DNA of 36,196 nucleotides from a virus: the IMG/VR virus record IMGVR_UViG_3300034061_004035, positions 1-36,196 of that record; one strand, written 5' to 3'. Position numbers and translations under genes: made by a program. This document shows, one piece after another, positions 4,112 through 16,505 of this stretch (the first letter of the stretch is position 1; every line of letters starts with the position of its first letter). The notes under the pieces are model-generated. The model ran no database searches. It was not told the origin of the DNA and saw nothing but the letters and a program-made list of their open reading frames with translations.

Positions 4112-7100
4112 TTATCGGGCGGATGTTAACCGATCCAGCATGTCTTTGGCAGAGGAGACTTCACCGCCTTTGGCATACCCTAGATTTGCAGAGTCCAGCT
4201 TATCTGGGTCAAAATCTGCGTTGACTGAGCGAATGTTTTTAGGGTCAAACACTAAATAATGAGTAGCAGAGGGCGCATTCATAGGGTCGCGAAAATTAGT
4301 TATTTTAAGGCCATCGTATCCCGCATCTCTCGCTTCTTTCCCTAACTTTGTAAGACCTTTTTTATCCTGCAGTTCTCTTATACTAGTATCCCCAGCGTCA
4401 TATTCCATGAAATTGCCACGCGCTCTTACGGGCATTATGTTTGCTCCACCGCCCCCACCAATTCGGGTAGGAAGAGGAAAAAACTTCCTTGCTTCAGCGG
4501 GATCTGGGACGCCTGCCTCTAGTGCATCCGTCGCCTGTTTAATTTTATCAGCTAGTGGAGCAAGCTTTAATTTGCCTTCTTCTCTAGCAACTATACGTTC
4601 TTCTCTTTGAAGATTACTGGTTGTGCGCCAAAGTTTCTCAACAGCGTTATCATATTTGTCTTGTAGTTTTTGAAGAGAACTAAAAGGAGCAAAAGACGCG
4701 TATATGTTGGCTGTTTTTGGATCATCTGTTAACCATGTGCCCAGTTTGGCGCTTGGAGAATTTGTAACCGACCCGAAAAACTTTTTATTAAATTCGTCAA
4801 ACGCTGCGTTGTCTAGACTTGCTGTTCCATGATAAAGCGTTGGGGTATACCCTTGCTCCGCTGCCCTTGCCTCCCTTGCCTCTTGAGACCTATCAAGCGG
4901 AGCCCGTCTTGTTAAACGGATTGGGCTAGCCCGATCCGTTAACTCAGCAAGGTCGTCGGCGGCGGTTGGTGTGTTAGAGCCAGCCATCCTCATCATGGCT
5001 TCATCTGGCGCGCCTGCTATTCGCCTGCTAAGTCGCCCAGCTGTCCCTATCAGGGGTGTTGCTCCTGCCGCTGCTAGCGTAGACATCTGCTCGTACATGG
5101 CGGCTGCGTCAAGGTCATTGGCCGCACGGGCCTCGTTGGCAAGGTCTGAGTACTTTACCGCGTCCCTACCGGAGCGGATCTCACCAACCACAGGCAACAT
5201 ATCCAGTATAAAGCCTGCTGGATCTTGCTTTAGACCCTCAACAGCACCGCTGCCCAGCGCGCTAACGTCTGCACCAACCTTAGCTAACGGCGCTTCGCTT
5301 TGCAAAACATCCCTACCGTAACCCATCACCGTCTGAGGTATCTGAGCAAACCCAGAGCGCAAATTTTCCAGCATGGCGCGGCTTTCAGTCTGCTCGGGTG
5401 TCGGCTCCCTTTCAGGGGTTCGAGTACTAGGGGTGTTGTCAATGTTCTCTAACTGCCGACGCAGTAGCTCCGCGTCCGCCTCTCCACCATTAGCAAAGCG
5501 GGCCAGCTCATCCTTGGCTGACCCATCAGGCTTTTTTACAAGGCCGCCTTTGGCTTGCTGCAGGATGTCGTAACCGCCGTAGGTAATTTTGTCGCCGCCG
5601 TCTATTGCAGCCGCGTAGCCGCCGGGTTGGGTGCTGCTGCCGCTGCCGCGTATGACGCTGCTATCTGTTTGGTCAACGTCTGTTGCACCTGTTCCTACTG
5701 TGGCGTCTGTCTTGACGGCCTGACCTGTAGGGGCGCCTGCCTCAAGGCTTGCTATGAACGCTTGTAATTGCTGACCCTCGGGGGTCTTTGGGTCAAACAC
5801 ACGCTGCGGATCGCCAAACTCCTGCGCCATTATTCGGTTACGAAGCAGGGCATAGTTGCTCGCATTGCGAAGTGCAGGCGACCTTGCTTGCAGTGTACGC
5901 AAGTTGCGGTCAATCGCCGCACGGTTCTGCGCAAACTGCTGCGACTTGGACGGGCCAAGTCCGCCATAAGCCTGAACCTCTCTCGGGCTCAGTAACGAGC
6001 GCGGACGAGTGGTCACGCTTGGCGGCGTGAAGGTAAAGCCAGCGCCGGTTGCTGGCCTAAGCTTCGCAGCAGGGCTGTAGTCGAACTGACCCGGTAACCC
6101 CGGGATCGCGGTTCGCGGAGAGCTCTCCCTGAACGCTGTGTCCAGCGCAGCCTGCCCAGCAGCGTAGATGTCCGGCTGCGTTGGAAGCTGGCCGTACACG
6201 GTCGGCGCAGTGTAGGTCGGTGCGACAAAGGGTTTTGGAGCCTCATAGGTATCCAAGAACTTTGACACACCGCTCTGGCTACCTGTCGCTGCGCTGCCAC
6301 GGGTGTCCATCGGGTTGGTTACCGTGCCGAGTGCTGCCGGCTGTTTTTCCGCTGCTGCAATAATGTCCCGCAGTTGTTGGGCGTTGTACGTTGGCGTAAC
6401 GGCTGCGACTAAGTCTTTCGGCGTGACGCCGCCTGTTAATACAACGGGCGGTGGTACAACGGGCGGTGGTACAACGGGCGGTGGTACAACGGGCGGTGGT
6501 ACAACGGGCGGCGGTACAACAGGCGGTGGTACAACAGGAGGAACTGCCGCCCGCTGAGTAAACAACACATTCGGGTCCACACCCGCCTTAATCAAGTCAT
6601 CAAACGAGTACCCACGCTCAGTGGCGTACTCCAGCATCTGAGCTCTTTCAGCAGCATCAATGCCGCCCTGCTGCAGGTTGGCGACATAGTCACGCCCCTG
6701 CTTGTCCAGTATCGCCCTGCCATCCTGCCCCCGCGCAGTTAAGCGCTGCGACTCAAACGCCAAGTCGGGGCTGCGCTCGTAGGCCGAGGTCATGCCGGTA
6801 GGCGTCACAAACTGCTCTTGCTTAATCGGAGCCTGAACCGTAAAGATCTTGTTCAACACCGCATCGGCAACGCCTGCAGCGCGAAGGTCTGAGGTGCTGA
6901 TGCCAGACTGGATCAGCTGGTTGTACGCATCAACGCCAGTCGGCGCGTTGGCATTGGCAAGGTACGCCTCGGCGTCCTTTCTAAGATTGGCGTAGTAGTC
7001 ACCAACCGTCTGCTGACCGCCCTTCTCCATCGCCGCGCGATACGCCGCCGATACGCCCGCTGCCGTGCCCGGCTGCTCAGTTGCTTGCGCCTGAACGGGA

Positions 7101-7630
7101 GGTAAAGATGGAGGCGGAGGCGGGGACGAAGATGCCTTAACCGGCGCCATCGCTTGTTCTTGCGCCATTAGCATATCAAGGCGCTGCGCCGTGGCGGGAG
7201 GGGTTGTCATTACACCCTGCGTTTTCCCCGCAATGCTTGATGGACTTGCTGGACTAAATTGGTCACCAGAAGGTATTCCAATAAGAAAACTTGGCATATC
7301 GACAGGGCCCGAAGGGCCACGAGAATCCGGCAACACGGGAACTTGAGGCCTTTCAGGGCGAGGGGCAGCCGCCCGCTGTCCCATAAGCTCGGCCTGAACC
7401 TCTTGCGGTGAATAGCCGCTTGCCCGTGCAACTTGATCGACCCCAACACCGTACTGGGCCATTGCATCCCCAATCGCCCTGTGCGCCTCGACTCCCGGTC
7501 CACCGAACTGCGCGTAGGTGTTCTGAATAAACTGCTTCACCTCGTCGTCGCTGAAGGCTTTTGCCGCTCCGCCCTTCGCCATCCGCACAGGAAGCCGTGC
7601 CAGCATTTGTCGCGCAGTTAAATTGGGCAT
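4112..7630 (-). CDS. Giant virion protein with C-terminal ADP-ribosyltransferase-like (ART-PolyVal) domain
   Basis: 1172 aa. The first ~700 residues are Ala/Gln/Pro-rich and low in complexity, with a pentapeptide VPPPV repeat near residues 365-397. A middle part (about 770-900) has helical and glycine/alanine-rich segments (DILPVVGEI-like turns, STLAAAGATPLIGTAGR). The last ~230 residues resemble ADP-ribosyltransferases of the polyvalent-protein group: LYHGT (the ART His), then GTWLTDDPKTANIYA, a long insert, and the closing GYDGLKITN and HYLVFDPKNIRSV. Its size, position between terminase and portal, and lysine-glycine motifs (AKGGLVKK, AKGGEVSS) suggest an injected virion protein. The ART could modify a host target after ejection, but activity is only inferred. 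Start ATG at 7630 with GAGG upstream. Confidence 0.7.
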   Translation of the reverse strand: MPNLTARQMLARLPVRMAKGGAAKAFSDDEVKQFIQNTYAQFGGPGVEAHRAIGDAMAQYGVGVDQVARASGYSPQEVQAELMGQRAAAPRPERPQVPVLPDSRGPSGPVDMPSFLIGIPSGDQFSPASPSSIAGKTQGVMTTPPATAQRLDMLMAQEQAMAPVKASSSPPPPPSLPPVQAQATEQPGTAAGVSAAYRAAMEKGGQQTVGDYYANLRKDAEAYLANANAPTGVDAYNQLIQSGISTSDLRAAGVADAVLNKIFTVQAPIKQEQFVTPTGMTSAYERSPDLAFESQRLTARGQDGRAILDKQGRDYVANLQQGGIDAAERAQMLEYATERGYSFDDLIKAGVDPNVLFTQRAAVPPVVPPPVVPPPVVPPPVVPPPVVPPPVVPPPVVLTGGVTPKDLVAAVTPTYNAQQLRDIIAAAEKQPAALGTVTNPMDTRGSAATGSQSGVSKFLDTYEAPKPFVAPTYTAPTVYGQLPTQPDIYAAGQAALDTAFRESSPRTAIPGLPGQFDYSPAAKLRPATGAGFTFTPPSVTTRPRSLLSPREVQAYGGLGPSKSQQFAQNRAAIDRNLRTLQARSPALRNASNYALLRNRIMAQEFGDPQRVFDPKTPEGQQLQAFIASLEAGAPTGQAVKTDATVGTGATDVDQTDSSVIRGSGSSTQPGGYAAAIDGGDKITYGGYDILQQAKGGLVKKPDGSAKDELARFANGGEADAELLRRQLENIDNTPSTRTPEREPTPEQTESRAMLENLRSGFAQIPQTVMGYGRDVLQSEAPLAKVGADVSALGSGAVEGLKQDPAGFILDMLPVVGEIRSGRDAVKYSDLANEARAANDLDAAAMYEQMSTLAAAGATPLIGTAGRLSRRIAGAPDEAMMRMAGSNTPTAADDLAELTDRASPIRLTRRAPLDRSQEAREARAAEQGYTPTLYHGTASLDNAAFDEFNKKFFGSVTNSPSAKLGTWLTDDPKTANIYASFAPFSSLQKLQDKYDNAVEKLWRTTSNLQREERIVAREEGKLKLAPLADKIKQATDALEAGVPDPAEARKFFPLPTRIGGGGGANIMPVRARGNFMEYDAGDTSIRELQDKKGLTKLGKEARDAGYDGLKITNFRDPMNAPSATHYLVFDPKNIRSVNADFDPDKLDSANLGYAKGGEVSSAKDMLDRLTSAR
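6441..6537 (-). repeat. In-frame 15-bp tandem repeat coding VPPPV
   Basis: Six full copies of a 15-bp unit (plus strand ACAACGGGCGGTGGT and close variants) plus a partial seventh. They lie in frame within the giant virion gene and code repeated VPPPV pentapeptides. Copies differ by one or two third-position changes; the right-most copies carry ACAACAGG. A proline-rich rod or spacer is likely, and slippage could change its length between relatives. Confidence 0.95.
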
Positions 7631-7667: not shown

Positions 7668-9143
7668 CTAATAATACTCCGGCACAAGCGCTTCGTCACT
7701 GCTCTCGTCATCTTCATCCGTGTGCAGCTTAACAAAGTTGCCTGAGCGGAACCGTAACATCGCCTGCGTCGTGCTGTCCACCATGTCATCATGGTCCCCG
7801 TTCGGGAAGGCAGCACACTCCTCAATCAACTCATTTGCCCACTGCGTGTGCGGCGCCCAGACCATGCCCGACTCAAACATCGGCGCCACGGCATTGGCCC
7901 GCGATACCTTGTCCTGACCCGCACGGCGACCGCCCGGGTTGTACATCGTTACCGGAATACCCGTCCTGCGCATCTCCTGCTGCAGCACCGTACCAGTGGC
8001 CTTTGCTTCAATCAACACGTTGTCTGGGTGCCAGTGCTTGTAATGCTCAAACGCCTTTCGCTTTAATTCAGGAAAGTCCCACCGCCCACGCTCCACGTCC
8101 ATCAGGATAATATTCGGTCCCGCATCGGCGTCCGGGTAAAACACGCCCCATGTCGTGATCACAGAGTAGTCCGCCGTCTCCTTCTTAGAATACGCCGTGT
8201 CGTATGACTGGATAATGTACTCAACCGGAGGCAGGTCGTCATTAGGCCAACGACGCCACCAGTCCCGCTTCAAGATCGCCCCGTCCTCTGCCGTGGGCGT
8301 CTGCTGCCACTGCGCGTTCCACTTGCGCTGGCCGATGGCCGTGCGCACCTTTTCAAGCTCCAACAAGCTCCAGTACTTTGGCCACAACGGTTTGCCAGAA
8401 GGTAAGATTGCCGGAAACTCCAACACCTCCCAATGGTCAGACCTCGGCTGGCCCTGCATGCGCAGTAACCGACCAGTCAGGTCATCCGTGCGCCAGCGGG
8501 TGTTGATCACAATAATAGACCCGTTTGGCTGCAGACGCTGACGCGGGCCAGAGGTGTACCACTCAAACGTGTTGTCCATCGCCGTGTCCGACTGCGCATC
8601 CTGCTCATCCAAGATGTCATCCAGAATCACAATGTCGCCGCCGCGACCCGTCATCGCACCGCCCTTACCAATGAAAAACGCTTCACCGCCCTGACTCGTG
8701 TCCCAACGGCCCGCCGCCTTGGAGTCCGCAGACAAGGTCATGTCCGGAAACACATCCCTATACCGGTCCTCCGAAACCAAGTTACGGATCATACGGCCAA
8801 AGCGCTGCGATAACTCCGCTGTGTGGGAACCCACAATGAGCTTGGACTTCGGTACACGGCCCATTAAATACGCCGGAAACAGATAACTGCCCATCTGCGA
8901 CTTGCCGTGACGAGGCGGCATCGCAATCATCAACCGCTTACATTCCCCAGAAACAACCCGGTCAAGCTTCTCCGCAATCAACCGGTGGTGCTCCCCCACA
9001 ATCATCTCCGGCCATACGTACTGACAGAACGCCAAGAAATTCTTCTTCGCCTTCTGCTGGCCCTCCAGCTGCAACATCCGAAGCTCAAGCTTCTTACGGT
9101 GCGCCTCTACATCAAACTGAGATTTATAAACAGACATGGTCAA
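7668..9143 (-). CDS. terL: Terminase large subunit (packaging ATPase/nuclease)
   Basis: 491 aa. The ATPase domain has Walker A MPPRHGKSQ (about residues 75-83) and Walker B IVILDDILDE (171-180), with a coupling segment IVINTRWRTDD. The RNase H-like nuclease has its acidic residues in SYDTAYSK (Asp314), LIEAKATGT (Glu379) and DHDDMVDSTTQA (Asp452-456). It cuts concatemeric DNA and drives it into the prohead through the portal. The frame opens with TTG at 9143, seven nt after AGGAG; the next ATG, at 9137, is 13 nt from that site, so TTG is the more likely start. It heads the packaging/head operon, with a TATAAT at 9174..9179 upstream. The small subunit is about 4.6 kb away. Confidence 0.95.
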   Translation of the reverse strand: MTMSVYKSQFDVEAHRKKLELRMLQLEGQQKAKKNFLAFCQYVWPEMIVGEHHRLIAEKLDRVVSGECKRLMIAMPPRHGKSQMGSYLFPAYLMGRVPKSKLIVGSHTAELSQRFGRMIRNLVSEDRYRDVFPDMTLSADSKAAGRWDTSQGGEAFFIGKGGAMTGRGGDIVILDDILDEQDAQSDTAMDNTFEWYTSGPRQRLQPNGSIIVINTRWRTDDLTGRLLRMQGQPRSDHWEVLEFPAILPSGKPLWPKYWSLLELEKVRTAIGQRKWNAQWQQTPTAEDGAILKRDWWRRWPNDDLPPVEYIIQSYDTAYSKKETADYSVITTWGVFYPDADAGPNIILMDVERGRWDFPELKRKAFEHYKHWHPDNVLIEAKATGTVLQQEMRRTGIPVTMYNPGGRRAGQDKVSRANAVAPMFESGMVWAPHTQWANELIEECAAFPNGDHDDMVDSTTQAMLRFRSGNFVKLHTDEDDESSDEALVPEYY

Positions 9144-9173
9144 GATGCCGCTCCTGTGACATGGGTCTGCCGC

Positions 9174-9179
9174 ATTATA
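9174..9179 (-). promoter_or_regulatory. Candidate -10 box for the packaging/head operon
   Basis: The minus strand reads GGGTATAATGC here, a perfect TATAAT about 30 nt before the terminase start. The -35 region is AT-rich (TTAAAA at a 19-nt spacing) and poor, so this may be an activated late promoter. It is the only good -10 seen between the terminase gene and the repeats to its right. Confidence 0.5.
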
Positions 9180-9296
9180 CCCGTTTTCGTTTTGAAATTT
9201 TTAATATACCCCCACCCGTCGATTTTACAAAACAAGGGGGGCCTTTTCAGGGGCCCGTGGTTCACGGTTCACGGCTACAGACAAAAAGGGCAGGAA

Positions 9297-9312
9297 TGTT
9301 CCACGTGGAACC
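9297..9312. promoter_or_regulatory. parS-like: parS-like site (TGTTCCACGTGGAACC)
   Basis: The 14-bp core GTTCCACGTGGAAC is a perfect palindrome and equals the perfectly palindromic parS of Pseudomonas chromosomes, the site at which ParB loads as a CTP-dependent clamp. The general bacterial consensus TGTTTCACGTGAAACA differs at only two positions of the core. It sits in non-coding DNA with TTCACGG half-site-like repeats at about 9260-9275 and GTTTCACG at 9461-9468. No parA or parB gene is in the window, so any ParB would be the host's or be encoded outside. The sequence match is direct; function is inference. Confidence 0.55.
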
Positions 9313-9313
9313 C

Positions 9314-9419
9314 TTATTCGTTTTATGAATAATACTGCCGTCCGTTATCACTTAAATGAATAACTCTCTTATACGTTTTATGTATAACACCCCCACCTGT
9401 TATAACTCAAATGAATAAC
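9314..9419. repeat. Two copies of a 55-bp repeat, each with two dyads
   Basis: Dyad A is TTATTC/GAATAA at 9314..9332 and TTATAC/GTATAA at 9369..9387, both around the same 7-nt centre GTTTTAT. The change in one arm is matched in the other. Dyad B is GTTAT/ATAAC around 11 nt at 9344..9364 and 9399..9419. Both dyads recur exactly 55 bp apart. A weaker third GTTCTAT lies at 9424..9430, followed by the dyad GTGAT/ATCAC at 9431..9446 and GTGAAA/TTTCAC at 9455..9467. This looks like an array of protein-binding sites, an origin or structured RNA. Confidence 0.75.
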
Positions 9420-9631
9420 CCTCGTTCTATGTGATACATGCATCACTTTTAACTGTGAAAGTTTCACGCTTCACGGCGCACGGACCGGGGGCTTTTCAAA
9501 AGTGTTTCGCTACCCGTTGTATGTATGAAATCGGGCTTCTGCCCCGCCCTGTCGCGAGGGGTGGGCGAGGCGGCGGGTCGGTTTTCGCGGGTCGGCTCGG
9601 GGCTTTGGAATCGGCGTTAGGGTACCTGCTA

Positions 9632-9657
9632 TTTCCGGTAATGTTATTTACCGGAAA
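9632..9657. repeat. Perfect 10-bp inverted repeat in the non-coding gap
   Basis: TTTCCGGTAA and TTACCGGAAA face each other across a 6-nt loop. There is no T-run on either side, so it is not a typical intrinsic terminator. An operator or an RNA hairpin is possible. The stretch before it (about 9530-9605) is very GC-rich and holds no convincing gene. Confidence 0.7.
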
Positions 9658-9692
9658 CAGTGATCCGTTACAAATCAATGACTTACGTTAAC

Positions 9693-9831
9693 CGGCGCGC
9701 GGCGCATGGCCAACGATACAGAAAAACTATCACCTCGGCGCGTGATCCACGGCGCGCGGCGCAAGATCCGCGATTCACGGCGGCGGCGTATCAGGCGGCG
9801 GCGAAAGAGCGGCGGAAAACGGCGCGCGGCT
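9693..9831. repeat. GC-rich direct repeats (CGGCGCGCGG)
   Basis: The string CGGCGCGCGGC(G/T)C occurs at about 9693-9705, 9750-9762 and 9820-9832, with related CGGCG(C/G) runs and GATCC/GATTCACGG words between them. It contrasts sharply with the AT-rich repeats just to the left. Plus-strand reading frames across it translate to arginine runs, which I take as composition and not as a gene. Confidence 0.6.
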
Positions 9832-9845
9832 CGCGATCCAAGTAT

Positions 9846-9870
9846 AAAAAAAGCCCGCACAAGGCGGGCT
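9846..9870 (-). terminator. Intrinsic terminator (copy 1 of 4)
   Basis: On the minus strand AGCCCGC and GCGGGCT form a 7-bp stem with a 5-nt loop, followed by seven T. It lies 21 bp after the stop of the 30-aa membrane gene and ends that two-gene unit. The same stem recurs at 10264, 10545 and 11511. Confidence 0.88.
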
Positions 9871-9891
9871 CTTCGTCGGGCTGGCTGGCGA

Positions 9892-9984
9892 TCAGAGTGC
9901 CATCAGGATCACCATCATGGCGTACCACGTCGGGACGCCGATGAGAATGCCGATCACGGTTTTGATTATGTCGGATCTGCTCAT
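9892..9984 (-). CDS. Tiny single-span membrane protein (30 aa)
   Basis: It reads MSRSDIIKTVIGILIGVP and continues TWYAMMVILMAL. After a short charged head, nearly all of it is one hydrophobic helix long enough to cross the inner membrane. ATG at 9984 overlaps the upstream gene stop as ATGA and has GGAGGTGG 6-7 nt before it, within that gene; a terminator follows directly. The coupled start, good ribosome site and clear membrane pattern support a real gene in spite of its size. Function is unknown; tiny phage membrane proteins often act in lysis timing, superinfection exclusion or host interference. Confidence 0.7.
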   Translation of the reverse strand: MSRSDIIKTVIGILIGVPTWYAMMVILMAL

Positions 9985-10190
9985 GCTGCCACCTCCGCGA
10001 ACGTCTGACGCACGATACGCCAGTAGGCCTCGGTAGTGTCTACAGTGCGCACTACGCGGATCTTCCTGTGTGTGTGCTTATGGCATGCGGCCTCTTCCAC
10101 CGCATCGGCGCGCGAGTAAAAACCATTGATTACCTCGGGCTCGCCTGTCTCGCGCCAGATCCCGATCACTACGTAGTAGGCCTTTTCCAT
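9981..10190 (-). CDS. Small hypothetical phage protein (69 aa)
   Basis: It begins MEKAYYVVIGIWRETGEPEV. A hydrophobic strand comes first, then a segment with ADAVEEAACHKHTHRK, then strands and a short helix, suggesting a compact alpha/beta fold. The frame is open further upstream into the leader, but ATG at 10190 follows the repeated leader (AGAGAGACAGCAAAC), which also precedes a second gene at 10471; this fixes the start. It is the first gene of a two-gene unit ended by the terminator at 9846. The N-terminal YYVVIGI resembles that of the 87-aa protein at 13088..13351 (YYIVIEI), which also follows such a leader, so the two may be related. Confidence 0.7.
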   Translation of the reverse strand: MEKAYYVVIGIWRETGEPEVINGFYSRADAVEEAACHKHTHRKIRVVRTVDTTEAYWRIVRQTFAEVAA

Positions 10191-10260
10191 GTTTGCTGTC
10201 TCTCTGTATGTGCCCGTCCGGCGGCGGGCAAGGAATGCCGGAAGCCCGAGAATAACACAA
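10191..10260 (-). promoter_or_regulatory. Repeated promoter-leader module, copy A
   Basis: The minus strand runs from the terminator at 10264 through TGTGTTATTCTCGGGCTTCC (candidate -10 TATTCT, weak -35 TTGTGC inside the terminator stem). A GC-rich hairpin GCCCG/CGGGC with an 8-nt loop follows, then ACATACAGAGAGACAGCAAAC directly before ATG. The last ~39 nt (10191..10229) are identical to copy B. Conservation of non-coding DNA before two different genes argues for a shared leader that carries the ribosome site (AGAGAG). Confidence 0.65.
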
Positions 10261-10263
10261 ACG

Positions 10264-10286
10264 AAAAAGCCCGCACAAGGCGGGCT
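10264..10286 (-). terminator. Intrinsic terminator (copy 2 of 4)
   Basis: Same 7-bp stem and 5-nt loop as at 9846, with five T on the minus strand. It lies 5 bp after the stop of the gene at 10292..10471 and just upstream of promoter-leader copy A. Confidence 0.85.
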
Positions 10287-10291
10287 CTTCG

Positions 10292-10471
10292 TTAGTCTGG
10301 CCGGCATACTTGTGGACGCCAATCCCCCTCGCTCAAGTCGCCGTGCGACTCTATATAGAACCTCTCTGCACCGGTGTCAACCGTGCAGAATGTGGTGTTG
10401 ACCACTGGCGAATATGTGGCGTTGACCACACGCCCTTCGTACGAAACGCCTTCAAAGCTAAACTTTACCAT
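10292..10471 (-). CDS. Small hypothetical phage protein (59 aa)
   Basis: It begins MVKFSFEGVSYEGRVVNATY and is dominated by short beta strands with few helices, suggesting a small beta-barrel or sheet. It contains CTVDTGAERFYIESHGDL and ends RPQVCRPD. The start at ATG 10471 is set by the conserved leader; the upstream in-frame extension is leader sequence and not coding. This is a single-gene unit between terminators 10264 and 10545. No family is recognised. Confidence 0.68.
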   Translation of the reverse strand: MVKFSFEGVSYEGRVVNATYSPVVNTTFCTVDTGAERFYIESHGDLSEGDWRPQVCRPD

Positions 10472-10541
10472 GTTTGCTGTCTCTCTGTATGTGCCCGTCC
10501 GGCGGCGGGCGAGTAGTTGCCGGAAGCCCGAGAATAACACA
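10472..10541 (-). promoter_or_regulatory. Repeated promoter-leader module, copy B
   Basis: Almost identical to copy A. It has TGTGTTATTCTCGGGCTTCC, then a hairpin GCCCG/CGGGC, then ACATACAGAGAGACAGCAAAC before ATG at 10471. The only notable divergence from copy A is the ~10 nt just before the hairpin. Two such copies 281 bp apart mark a recent duplication or selection to keep the leader. Confidence 0.65.
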
Positions 10542-10544
10542 AAA

Positions 10545-10568
10545 GAAAAAGCCCGCACAAGGCGGGCT
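10545..10568 (-). terminator. Intrinsic terminator (copy 3 of 4)
   Basis: Same stem as at 9846, with a run of five T then more T-rich DNA on the minus strand. It lies 29 bp past the DUF932-like gene stop and so ends that unit. Confidence 0.85.
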
Positions 10569-10597
10569 CTTCGTCGGGCTGGCGAGGATCTGGCGGG

Positions 10598-11428
10598 CTA
10601 TGCTGCTGCAAGCTTTATTTGTGCCATGCGCTCCGTAAGCTCCCACAGTGATCGGTTGAGTTTCACATTCTCGTTAACTCCGCCGACGGCGCGCGTCGTT
10701 GTGCGGCGACCGGTAGTCGCATGTCCGCGAAGCCCGCCTTGAATCAGGTTTTCCTGCACACGGTTATACACTGTGAACAAATCACTACCGTAATCGGATG
10801 AGCGGCGTGGCCTCAATAATTGGATCGGCGACACTGGTGCCTTATCCTCCCACTTTAACTGGCTGGCGGCCTCCGCCAGTACCAACTGCTCACTTGGTGC
10901 CAGTGTGATTGCCTTGTACTGCTCTTTTCTGGCGTCTAAGGCCTCAAGGTTACTGACTACCTCATAACTACCTTCGATCACACTATCCACCACGTCGCCA
11001 GAGTGCCTGACCTTAACGTCGGTCGATACACTGCCGGCGATCAAACCATTACTGCACACAAAACGAAAATAGCCCGCCAGTAACTGATAACTACTAGTTC
11101 CATCGTGCGAATTCAGGAGAATGATTTCAGGTACCTCCGACAGTGTGCCGATCAGATCACGATGGCGCATGCGCACCATGTGGCGCGTATGCTCACGCTT
11201 GCCCACGTCGCGCGTTTTCGTCTGACGTACCTCATAAGGCTCAAAGCCCTCTTTTCTCAAGCCCTCAATCACCTTGATTGTCGGAATAAACGTATAACGC
11301 TCGCCTCTGCTTTCATGCGCCTGATCGGCGATAACGCTCGGCGCATAATGTGCCATGGCCTCGTTTGATAGCGGGCTATCTGATCTGAATGTGAATTCTT
11401 TTTTTGCGGATGCGTAGCGGTAGTTCAT
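10598..11428 (-). CDS. DUF932-like phage/plasmid protein
   Basis: 276 aa. The order of conserved-looking blocks matches the DUF932 (YfjQ/DUF945-like) family of phages and plasmids: an N-terminal APSVIADQAHESRGERYTFI, a central REHTRHMVRMRH with an acidic loop, EIILLNSHDGTSSYQL, then the signature FRFVCSNGLIAG, and a helical C-terminus with DLFTVYNRVQENLIQGG. The family is widespread on mobile DNA; its biochemical role is not established, though it often lies among DNA-metabolism or host-takeover genes. Start ATG at 11428 follows leader copy C; the longer frame upstream is leader sequence. It is a single-gene unit between terminators at 10545 and 11511. Confidence 0.8.
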   Translation of the reverse strand: MNYRYASAKKEFTFRSDSPLSNEAMAHYAPSVIADQAHESRGERYTFIPTIKVIEGLRKEGFEPYEVRQTKTRDVGKREHTRHMVRMRHRDLIGTLSEVPEIILLNSHDGTSSYQLLAGYFRFVCSNGLIAGSVSTDVKVRHSGDVVDSVIEGSYEVVSNLEALDARKEQYKAITLAPSEQLVLAEAASQLKWEDKAPVSPIQLLRPRRSSDYGSDLFTVYNRVQENLIQGGLRGHATTGRRTTTRAVGGVNENVKLNRSLWELTERMAQIKLAAA

Positions 11429-13438: not shown

Positions 13439-13854
13439 CAGGTCAATGCGTATTGCAGTAAATGCCACCGCACGTTATCAGCTGGCCATTGCTGATAAGC
13501 CGGCACGTCTACTCCCCGCTCCATCAGATCCTGCACCTGCTTGCCCTTGTACAGCAGCCACTGCGCCCCATGTATCGTCGGCGCCTTCGGTGGATGGTAT
13601 TGCACGAGGATATACGTCGGCACCTTTATCGCAGCATGCGCGGTATGAAACGCAATCTGGTGCGGGCTGAACTTGATCTTGCGCCCACGCTTAACGACTT
13701 TCAACTCCAGCATGGCAAAACCACAATCCTTTATCGCCAGCAGGCAATCCGGAATGCCAAGCCCGACGCGACTCTCAATCCTCGTCAGTCTCGACTCTGG
13801 TGGCAGGTTCTCCTTCAGTCTCTGGTACAACAATGTCTCCGGTTTCGTCGCCAT
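13435..13854 (-). CDS. VRR-NUC-like nuclease (PD-(D/E)XK fold)
   Basis: 139 aa. It has SRVGLGIPDCLL (Asp36), then FAMLELKVVKRG (Glu50 and Lys52), then FSPHQIAFH (Gln66). Together these form the PD...ELK...Q pattern of VRR-NUC or Holliday-junction-resolvase-like phage nucleases, which cut branched DNA during replication or packaging. I chose ATG at 13854, 10 nt after GAGGAG; the resulting start lies 80 nt inside the small terminase gene. An upstream in-frame ATG is possible but lacks a site. Catalytic metal binding is inferred from the motif only. Confidence 0.8.
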   Translation of the reverse strand: MATKPETLLYQRLKENLPPESRLTRIESRVGLGIPDCLLAIKDCGFAMLELKVVKRGRKIKFSPHQIAFHTAHAAIKVPTYILVQYHPPKAPTIHGAQWLLYKGKQVQDLMERGVDVPAYQQWPADNVRWHLLQYALTC

Positions 13855-14500
13855 AACGCATATTCTCCTCATTGATAGAATGTTCAATGTCTTCCGGCAC
13901 AAGGTCGATGATCTCACTCGGCGTACCATAGACGTCCTTCAACCGCTCCAGCTCCTTCATGACATCTTCAGCAGTCATGCTGTCAATGGCACCATAGCGC
14001 ACCTCTTTGCGCTCAACGTAAATCGTGCCCAGTGCCTGCCCTCGGCGGAACTCGGCCTGCACCGCTGCACCAAAGTTACCTGCCTGCATGGCAGCGTCCC
14101 GAATACGCTGTAGGTCGCGCATATGCCGCTCGTAGGTCGTACCATAGACCTCTGCAATCTCCTGCCTATGCTCCTGTATAGCAGAGACAATGTGCGGGGA
14201 TAGTCTAGGGTTGGTCATCTCCGTTGCTTTGCCCTTCGCCTTCGCAGGGTCATACCCTGCCCGTACTGCGGCCTCCTTCAGAGTTATCTCACCAAAGTTG
14301 TTCACCACCTCGCTTACAAACCTCCACTCCTGCGCGGTCAACGGCATGTTCAGGGGTTTACTTACGGGCGTCATCAGCCTTTCTTTGGTCTTACGCCATG
14401 TTGATACCCGCTTGGTCGCTGGCGCACTCTTCAGCACCTCAGGTATCTGCTTACGCGCCAGTCTTCGTCTTGGCTGCAATAGTTCTTCATCGTCACTCAT
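13775..14500 (-). CDS. terS: Terminase small subunit
   Basis: 241 aa. Residues of about 60-105 have LTAQEWRFVSEVVNNFGEIT and KEAAVRAGYDPAKAKGKATE, then NPRLSPHIVSAIQEH, which is the helix-turn-helix pattern of Terminase_2-like small subunits. A helical oligomerisation region and an acidic C-terminus follow. The small subunit recognises the packaging site and delivers DNA to the large subunit. ATG at 14500 has AGGAGA 5 nt before it and overlaps the upstream stop as ATGA. Its C-terminus overlaps the nuclease gene by 80 nt in another frame. It lies far from terL, which is less common. Confidence 0.78.
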   Translation of the reverse strand: MSDDEELLQPRRRLARKQIPEVLKSAPATKRVSTWRKTKERLMTPVSKPLNMPLTAQEWRFVSEVVNNFGEITLKEAAVRAGYDPAKAKGKATEMTNPRLSPHIVSAIQEHRQEIAEVYGTTYERHMRDLQRIRDAAMQAGNFGAAVQAEFRRGQALGTIYVERKEVRYGAIDSMTAEDVMKELERLKDVYGTPSEIIDLVPEDIEHSINEENMRYGDETGDIVVPETEGEPATRVETDED

Positions 14501-14766
14501 TCTATTCTCCTGCATATGTAAGTATCGTCACTGGCTTTATCCAGTCTTATGGCAAAGTGGCTATCCTGCACACGGTTCCAGTAGGATACCGCCTGCCGAC
14601 ACGCCCTAAGTTCATCCTCATCCGTTAATTCAATGTAGTCGCCCACCTCCATGTCCTTCAACGGAAACCACATGCCTGACTTGGTCGCAGGGGTCTCAAC
14701 CAGAAAATGCATCCGGCAGTTCGGCCAGCAGATCTGGTGGTTCTCTGTATCGTCATAGCTTGGCAC
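14497..14766 (-). CDS. Hypothetical phage protein, tandem paralogue 1 (89 aa)
   Basis: It has the pattern MWFPLKDMEVGDYIELTD, then a helix with Ala-rich centre, then HFAIRLDKASDDTYICRRIE. It resembles the neighbouring protein at 14766 in the order [FY]P...M.V.D, TD, a basic helix, F.[IV]R and D.YICRR. Similar small proteins with MevGDS...FxvR patterns are frequent in phages; their role is unknown, though DNA or RNA binding is plausible. The start is GTG at 14766, with AGGAGG 8 nt upstream, sharing one base with the preceding stop (TAGTG). Confidence 0.72.
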   Translation of the reverse strand: MPSYDDTENHQICWPNCRMHFLVETPATKSGMWFPLKDMEVGDYIELTDEDELRACRQAVSYWNRVQDSHFAIRLDKASDDTYICRRIE

Positions 14767-16116: not shown

Positions 16117-16505
16117 CACTCACCTCCCTTGCCTGCTTCCACCGGCTCATAGGTCATCGCAAAAATGTCAGGTTTGCATGGATAGTGCTCGCCCTTTACG
16201 CCTGTGATAATCCAGTCTCCGGGGCATACAATGTGACCGCCCTCCAGCGTGTCGATCCAGCCGTGCAGGTGCATGATCGTGCCGCACTTTTCACACTTAC
16301 GCTCACCGGCAAATGCTTCTGCAGGATGCCTAAAATACCGAACAACCGCGCCTTCCCAGTTATGCGCTTTCCTATGATCGGCGGATATGTTTGACAATCT
16401 TCCGTTCTGGTACGCTGTCTGTTCGCCTGCATAATCCAGCGGATGATCGCCATTTTTAAACCACTGCGTTGCTTCAATCTCTACTGGCTTTTTTCTGTAT
16501 CTCAT
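16116..16505 (-). CDS. Conserved phage protein with PGDWII...YPCKPDIF signature (129 aa)
   Basis: It begins MRYRKKPVEIEATQWFKNGD and ends with CPGDWIITGVKGEHYPCKPD and IFAMTYEPVEAGKGGE. This N-terminal and C-terminal signature belongs to a widespread small phage protein family of unknown function. In the middle, CEKCG...HLHGW could bind zinc. ATG at 16505 is preceded by the full ribosome cassette and overlaps the upstream stop; a GTG one codon earlier is less likely. Confidence 0.8.
   Translation of the reverse strand: MRYRKKPVEIEATQWFKNGDHPLDYAGEQTAYQNGRLSNISADHRKAHNWEGAVVRYFRHPAEAFAGERKCEKCGTIMHLHGWIDTLEGGHIVCPGDWIITGVKGEHYPCKPDIFAMTYEPVEAGKGGE

Follow-up and report, generated by a model that had tools for sequence, protein, structure and literature searches.

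Candidate orphan parS sites near the large terminase gene of a podophage and its relatives

Introduction

What does a bacterial centromere site do in a phage genome that seems to encode no partition protein to act on it? The question arises from a single palindrome in the stretch of DNA analyzed here (the window), whose 36,196 bases make up a whole virus record. An earlier note on this DNA had recognized an exact parS palindrome of the Pseudomonas type in non-coding DNA, with no parA or parB, and had suggested that the phage may recruit the ParB of its host. For phi29, entrapment of the genome in spores via the host ParB, Spo0J, was reportedly described by Meijer et al. in 2005. Among the titles and abstracts listed as matches in our literature search (subscription papers and preprints lay outside its scope), none dealt with parS in the phages studied here.

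The window is very likely part of a podophage genome of about 60 kb; the complete relatives DSL-LC04, HTVC027P, HTVC023P and 023Pt_psg01 measure 57.6-61.5 kb. Its genes include those for the large and small terminase subunits (terL and TerS), portal, DNA polymerase, helicase, primase and a GroES-like protein. When 20 window proteins were scanned (a subset of the genes, some of them matchless), no family named as phi29-type was among the matches. The host of HTVC027P is Candidatus Pelagibacter. Pelagibacter is a non-spore-former. Published work describes HTVC027P as an obligately lytic phage whose latent period lasts about 18 h (PMC12753301).

Results

The window carries a chromosomal-type parS word outside genes

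As the earlier note had it, the 16-mer TGTTCCACGTGGAACC occupies 9297-9312 of the window, and the 14 bp at its core (GTTCCACGTGGAAC, 9298-9311) form a perfect palindrome (Table 1). Read on either strand, this is the single place in the window that matches the 16-mer at three or fewer mismatches. The 16-mer is letter for letter that of P. aeruginosa parS1 and parS4 (Table 1 of PMC4368675), both of which are reported there to be bound by ParB. The host need not be Pseudomonas on this account. Compared with the 16-bp parS palindrome consensus TGTTYCACGTGRAACA, the window site agrees at 15 of 16 positions. By its letters, it is a candidate chromosomal-type parS. A chance occurrence had been put at about once per 10^4 windows, which is about right: 36196/4^14 corresponds to once per ~7,400 windows.

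The placement in non-coding DNA was also confirmed. The site lies outside genes, the nearest being terL at a distance of 153 bp (listed TTG start), and its sole overlap is with a mechanical antisense ORF (8907-9332). It stands between TerS and terL, the same arrangement as in HTVC027P, and just upstream of the promoter-like and terminator-like matches at 9203-9256.

The earlier note had also pointed to half-site-like words on both sides of the palindrome, and this claim survives for one word only. Taking a half-parS to be GTTCCAC/GTTTCAC, as we assume, GTTTCACG at 9461 is the single true half-site, and TTCACGG (9261, 9268, 9470, 9774) does not qualify. We therefore rejected the flanking words as accessory sites. 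An RNA element or a tRNA was likewise rejected as the identity of the site, since an Rfam search of 8500-10800 gave no match and a tRNA search of the window found none. GC skew, used to look for a replication origin near parS, was uninformative as a marker and gave no origin.

Table 1. Features of the window around the candidate parS
Feature	Coordinates	Strand	Remarks
parS 16-mer TGTTCCACGTGGAACC	9297..9312	+	Same as P. aeruginosa parS1/parS4
terL, terminase large subunit	7668..9143	-	phrog_38, E 3.3e-117; parS sites of relatives cluster round its start
Terminase small subunit (TerS)	13775..14515	-	phrog_51, E 1.2e-10
Two 55-bp direct repeats (80% identical), AT-rich inverted elements adjoining parS	9313..9422		
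Two overlapping promoter-like matches, parS-terL interval	9203..9250	-	Consensus match only
Terminator-like hairpin, parS-terL interval	9239..9256	-	Consensus match only
Gene downstream of terL	4112..7630	-	In many relatives, parS in coding sequence here (V[SP]R[EG]T); not in the window

The parS word is strongly enriched and selected over 16 bp

From at least 600 terL relatives among viral contigs, we kept the best 80 and added the window, giving 81 loci and 1,099,528 bases. The word GTTYCACGTGRAAC occurs 48 times in this set, in 39 of 81 loci and in 24 distinct flanking contexts. Under a first-order Markov model of the 81 loci, 0.016 occurrences are expected, and the reversed control occurs 0 times. 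Of the 167 exact palindromic 14-mers in these loci, none recurs as often as GTTTCACGTGAAAC, which is found in 23 records and 15 contexts; the next by number of records is found in 10 records and a single context. The window form GTTCCACGTGGAAC, with 5 records and 4 contexts, is second (tied) by contexts.

Exact sites predominate, with 48 of them compared to 2 with one mismatch and 8 with two. Across the 24 contexts, both strands included, information stays close to its maximum for exactly 16 bases and drops on either side, where the largest value is 0.37 bits. Within the 16 bp, position 5 may be T or C, with matching freedom at its mirror, and the outermost base is rarely changed. For 50 of the 80 loci, the full records were searched as well, and the word is present in 26 of 50 and the reversed control in 0 of 50; 18 of these 26 records carry one site and 8 carry two. 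These data show that selection acts on the 16-bp DNA word, wherever it is placed. The conservation among relatives that the earlier note had proposed as a check is thus found as a word in 39 of 81 loci with a 16-bp footprint, but not always at the same position.

Sites cluster near terL but change position among relatives

Most sites in the 80 loci stand close to where the terL match starts: 44 of 47 are no more than 3 kb away, in 403 kb of DNA. Beyond 3 kb, there are 0 sites in 265 kb further upstream and 3 in 394 kb further downstream. In the 14 loci that have at least 9.5 kb on both sides, 7 of 9 sites fall within 3 kb of the terL match start. When loci were picked by the word alone, 46 sites were found in 32 terL loci, 36 of them within the same distance.

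Such clustering is what would be expected if ParB loaded at parS acted locally, either by timing terL transcription as a roadblock, silencer or insulator or by organizing DNA for packaging. One clade with sites 51-86 bp before the terL match start, and the window itself, where parS is just upstream of promoter-like matches, also favor a local effect. However, other sites lie about 2 kb upstream of terL or about 1.9 kb past the terL match start, in the next gene, and those of the HTVC027P group lie 3.5-5.3 kb upstream. These scattered placements indicate that there is no fixed promoter geometry. Furthermore, L178, a record of 62.7 kb, has its sole site far from terL, at a distance of about 22 kb if the record is circular and 40 kb otherwise. 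A local effect on terL is one of the two main rivals to a host-directed centromere, and we consider it unlikely.

When the sites were mapped on a tree of the 81 terL proteins, we counted no fewer than 17 changes in the class of site position and no fewer than 16 between presence and absence. These counts come from a quick tree with 28 of 76 inner branches well supported, in which 21 of 81 rows could not be judged for site class, and they are rough because classes were set by hand, two-site loci were given one class and truncated contigs hide sites. Site position turns over among relatives.

Sites within coding sequence read V-S/P-R-E/G-T. We asked how the V[SP]R[EG]T peptide is encoded in the open frames of the 81 loci and found 39 of 42 occurrences in parS letters, whereas codon usage predicts 0.0015; the count takes both strands, so that one site may count twice. 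Two of the three exceptions come from the same one-mismatch site, counted once per strand. Because the peptides are nearly always written in parS letters, it is the DNA and not the peptide that is constrained, and conservation of VSRET was rejected as the cause of the coding sites. In the window, the gene at 4112-7630 is large and has a weak ADP-ribosyltransferase (ART-PolyVal) match. The gene of DSL-LC04 at the equivalent position is annotated as PcfJ-like.

Several loci carry many exact copies in unrelated flanks: L223 has five upstream of terL, L250 has four upstream of terL and one at its start, and L259 has three at ~3-3.7 kb upstream. L223 and L250 are distant relatives of the window. 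The groups of GTTTCACGTGAAAC at L250 10536-11461, L223 2658-3443 and L259 241-960 resemble bacterial centromere clusters.

Copy number bears on the other main rival, in which phage parS is a sink or decoy that would draw ParB and SMC off the host origin, stalling segregation or division and freeing nucleotides or the septum. A sink draws on the same sequence evidence as a host-directed centromere, and the loci with three to five parS copies are consistent with it. One parS can load many ParB clamps, which also counts in its favor. In addition, parS-like copies on SGI1 are reported to destabilize the resident plasmid (PMC10954446). However, the 26 site-bearing full records carry just one or two copies, and a sink would need no clustering near terL. 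We regard this role as rather improbable.

No ParB domain was found in the window or its relatives

ParB_N (PF02195) was absent from all 27 group records searched, which comprise the window and 26 relatives, four of them 61.5-62.9 kb long; relatives of 58-63 kb had no ParB_N either. HTH_ParB (PF17762) was found in 0 of 20 records, with the window and HTVC027P among them, and no ParB is present among the annotated features listed for HTVC027P. As far as these two domains show, the absence of parB remarked on in the earlier note holds for the 36 kb record and the relatives searched. We term the window site orphan because neither domain was found in this probably incomplete record or in its relatives.

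The suggestion of a prophage or phage-plasmid gained no support. A tyrosine integrase (PF00589) was found in 0 of 20 records, which led us to reject an integrated prophage, and HTVC027P is obligately lytic according to PMC12753301. A phage-plasmid with its own partition system is likewise unsupported, as no ParB domain was found in the window or the relatives searched.

Among viral records that bear the word, 2 of 50 and 2 of 50, together 4 of 100 (for 118 loci), have a ParB_N match, many of the 100 records being short fragments. Three of the four matches are over the family cut-off. In these four records, the site could serve the phage's own ParB.

On the host side, a metagenome bin titled Rhodoferax holds a terL relative. 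The word set is present in 21 of 25 genomes of that bin's genus (after the Rhodoferax title), with 1-4 copies each and 0 of the reversed control. Other bins that hold terL relatives are of mixed taxa, and binning is no proof of host.

The word recurs in other phage groups and in a cultured relative

Scanning viral contigs for TGTTTCACGTGAAACA yielded at least 120 stretches, vs 10, 33 and 2 for control palindromes. Of 118 loci picked by the word, 32 match the terL of the window and 29 its portal, and 53 fall in one shared-protein cluster (single linkage). In the 14-mer scan (120 of at least 120 loci), 15 match terL, two of them weakly. Contamination by host chromosome is unlikely for the terL group, given the 32 terL matches among the 118 loci and ParB_N in just 4 of 100 word-bearing records.

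Six loci form a cluster of their own, in which phi29-like contigs were recognized by Pfam (L216) or tblastn (L215 and L257). These metagenome contigs have one to four GTTTCACGTGAAAC sites, some as close pairs. Another cluster of 13 loci has no link to the terL group (L209, L211, L234, L241, L247, L260, L280, L283, L297, L303, L313, L316 and L320). In one of them, L247, the head-tail connector protein is nearest to that of Pelagibacter phage Hodr and the site lies between predicted ORFs.

A single exact site is present in the cultured phage HTVC027P, at 16413-16426, in the interval that separates annotated genes gp31 and gp32. Among 80 loci found with the HTVC027P terL, 5 have an exact site, always 3.5-5.3 kb upstream; 14 of the loci reach 5.3 kb upstream, so the proportion is 5 of 14. 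Of the nine that reach this far but have no exact site, five carry a one-mismatch form in the record. The one-mismatch forms GTTTCATGTGAAAC and GTTCCATGTGAAAC recur in L388, L390, L386, L405 and L409, which are of the HTVC027P type. They are possibly a parS variant tolerated by SAR11 or a decaying site.

The site is frequent but not obligatory. Four relatives deposited as complete (DSL-LC04, HTVC023P, 023Pt_psg01 and MinM2) have no site at one or fewer mismatches, and 21 of the 81 terL loci (L122 included) lack an exact site although their flanks extend 3 kb or more upstream and 2.3 kb or more downstream. There is no exact site in the SAR11 phages HTVC010P, HTVC019P and Hodr.

Close relatives keep the palindrome while the adjoining DNA is exchanged

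L077, which came from the 14-mer scan, is 98.6% identical to window 8598-9311 (the terL start region) and its site is exact; in full, towards terL, it reads TGTTCCACGTGGAACA. Similarity to the window ends at 9311, in the site itself, and returns at 9417, the array between being different. L122, whose terL is 99% identical to that of the window, shares this other array with L077, and its similarity to the window also breaks at 9311 and is back at 9417. Its site has one mismatch, TGTTCCACGTAGAACA. Of the two closest relatives found, one keeps the site exactly and the other differs by one base. At almost the position seen in the window, L124 and L125 retain the exact core and L123 has a mixed form. 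Together, these comparisons indicate that the palindrome was kept while the adjoining DNA was swapped.

The AT-rich inverted-repeat array occupies 9313-9422 in the window, and the different array lies at 9360-9950 in L122 and 4960-5160 in L077. Upstream of terL, L123-L125 have a third kind of array. The array beside parS may serve as an operator, origin or accessory element that changes quickly.

An adjoining variable array, together with the many DNA-binding proteins of unknown role that phages encode, might suggest that the site is itself the operator of a phage regulator that shares the parS word by coincidence. Several observations argue against this. The 16-bp profile with its Y/R freedom at position 5 is parS-like, the word is also present in the unrelated phages phi29 and B103 and in other clusters without protein links to the group, and sites in coding sequence are unlike operators. 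HTH_ParB, the one regulator family covered, was found in 0 of 20 records. We consider an operator very unlikely. A chance palindrome that has no function in the window phage, to which the one-base mismatch of close relative L122 might point, is hardly credible and was rejected on the strength of the 48 occurrences vs 0.016 expected in 24 contexts, the 16-bp profile, and the exact core of L077, L124 and L125 and mixed form of L123 at nearly the same place.

Discussion

We propose that the phage uses the window site as a functional orphan parS, which would serve as a centromere for the ParB of the host rather than for one of the phage's own, and we consider this likely. The idea that the phage uses parS via host ParB is supported by the strong conservation of the site, a footprint that is that of parS, and the lack of ParB domains in the records searched. 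Because the site is identical in sequence to parS, host ParB very probably loads there.

After DNA entry, ParB-CTP clamps of the host would load at the phage 16-mer and slide across the neighboring terminase and packaging region. ParB would then bring ParA and/or SMC to the phage genome, which might be positioned, condensed or segregated like the host origin region. In slow-growing aquatic hosts with long infections, phage genomes could in this way be kept in place and, if division precedes lysis, inherited. Such inheritance would be a vegetative counterpart of the trapping of phi29 in spores.

The purpose of the site is speculative. Segregation or positioning is a plausible purpose, although we hold to it with less than even confidence. 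Inheritance or positioning in long infections is the purpose we prefer because HTVC027P is obligately lytic, with a latency of ~18 h as given in PMC12753301; it is doubtful that segregation is useful to a lytic phage. A broader proposal is that lytic podophages of non-sporulating aquatic bacteria, some of them SAR11 (HTVC023P type), carry host centromeres as a large group, at times in several copies, and that, via host ParB, their genomes ride with the host chromosome to daughter cells in the course of long or arrested infections. On this view, lytic phages would possess an inherited state while neither integrating nor encoding a partition gene. We advance it tentatively.

One of the two closest precedents is phi29, whose genome is trapped in spores through host Spo0J, so that it relies on a host segregation protein (PMC9437464). 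This virulent phage resembles the phages described here in having exact parS sites and no ParB. We found four exact TGTTTCACGTGGAACA sites in phi29, of which three fall within annotated genes and the fourth just beyond gene 16, and no ParB among its 35 annotated features. B103 carries the parS word, as phi29 does. HTVC027P has the same combination of an exact parS, an obligately lytic lifestyle (as stated in PMC12753301) and no ParB found. In contrast, phi29 belongs to an unrelated phage group with a Gram-positive, spore-forming host, and in our group the sites cluster at terL. Since Pelagibacter does not sporulate, spore entrapment cannot be the purpose in HTVC027P.

Other systems share parts of this logic. 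The SGI1 family, the second close precedent, is reported to use parS mimics to ride on the ParABS system of IncC plasmids, so that here too a mobile element with parS mimics uses the ParB of another replicon (PMC10954446). SGI1 differs in that its ParB comes from a helper plasmid and the element is an integrative mobilizable island, and also in that binding and stabilization are reported as shown for it (PMC10954446). The window 16-mer equals chromosomal parS1 and parS4 of P. aeruginosa, but it sits on a phage with no parB found, away from a bacterial oriC/parAB (PMC4368675). Staphylococcus phage Lacachita also uses ParB/parS logic; as PMC10286716 describes it, this phage encodes its own ParB, unlike the window group, in which none was found.

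If host ParB does load at these sites, chromosome segregation would be a widely exploited host function. Orphan parS would then be a simple sequence marker of that exploitation, one that can be matched to hosts. The phi29/Spo0J case would also be extended beyond spore formers. The cultured pair of HTVC027P and Candidatus Pelagibacter HTCC1062 permits direct tests. The proposed use of host ParB would offer a testable mechanism for the persistence of lytic phages in slowly dividing bacteria.
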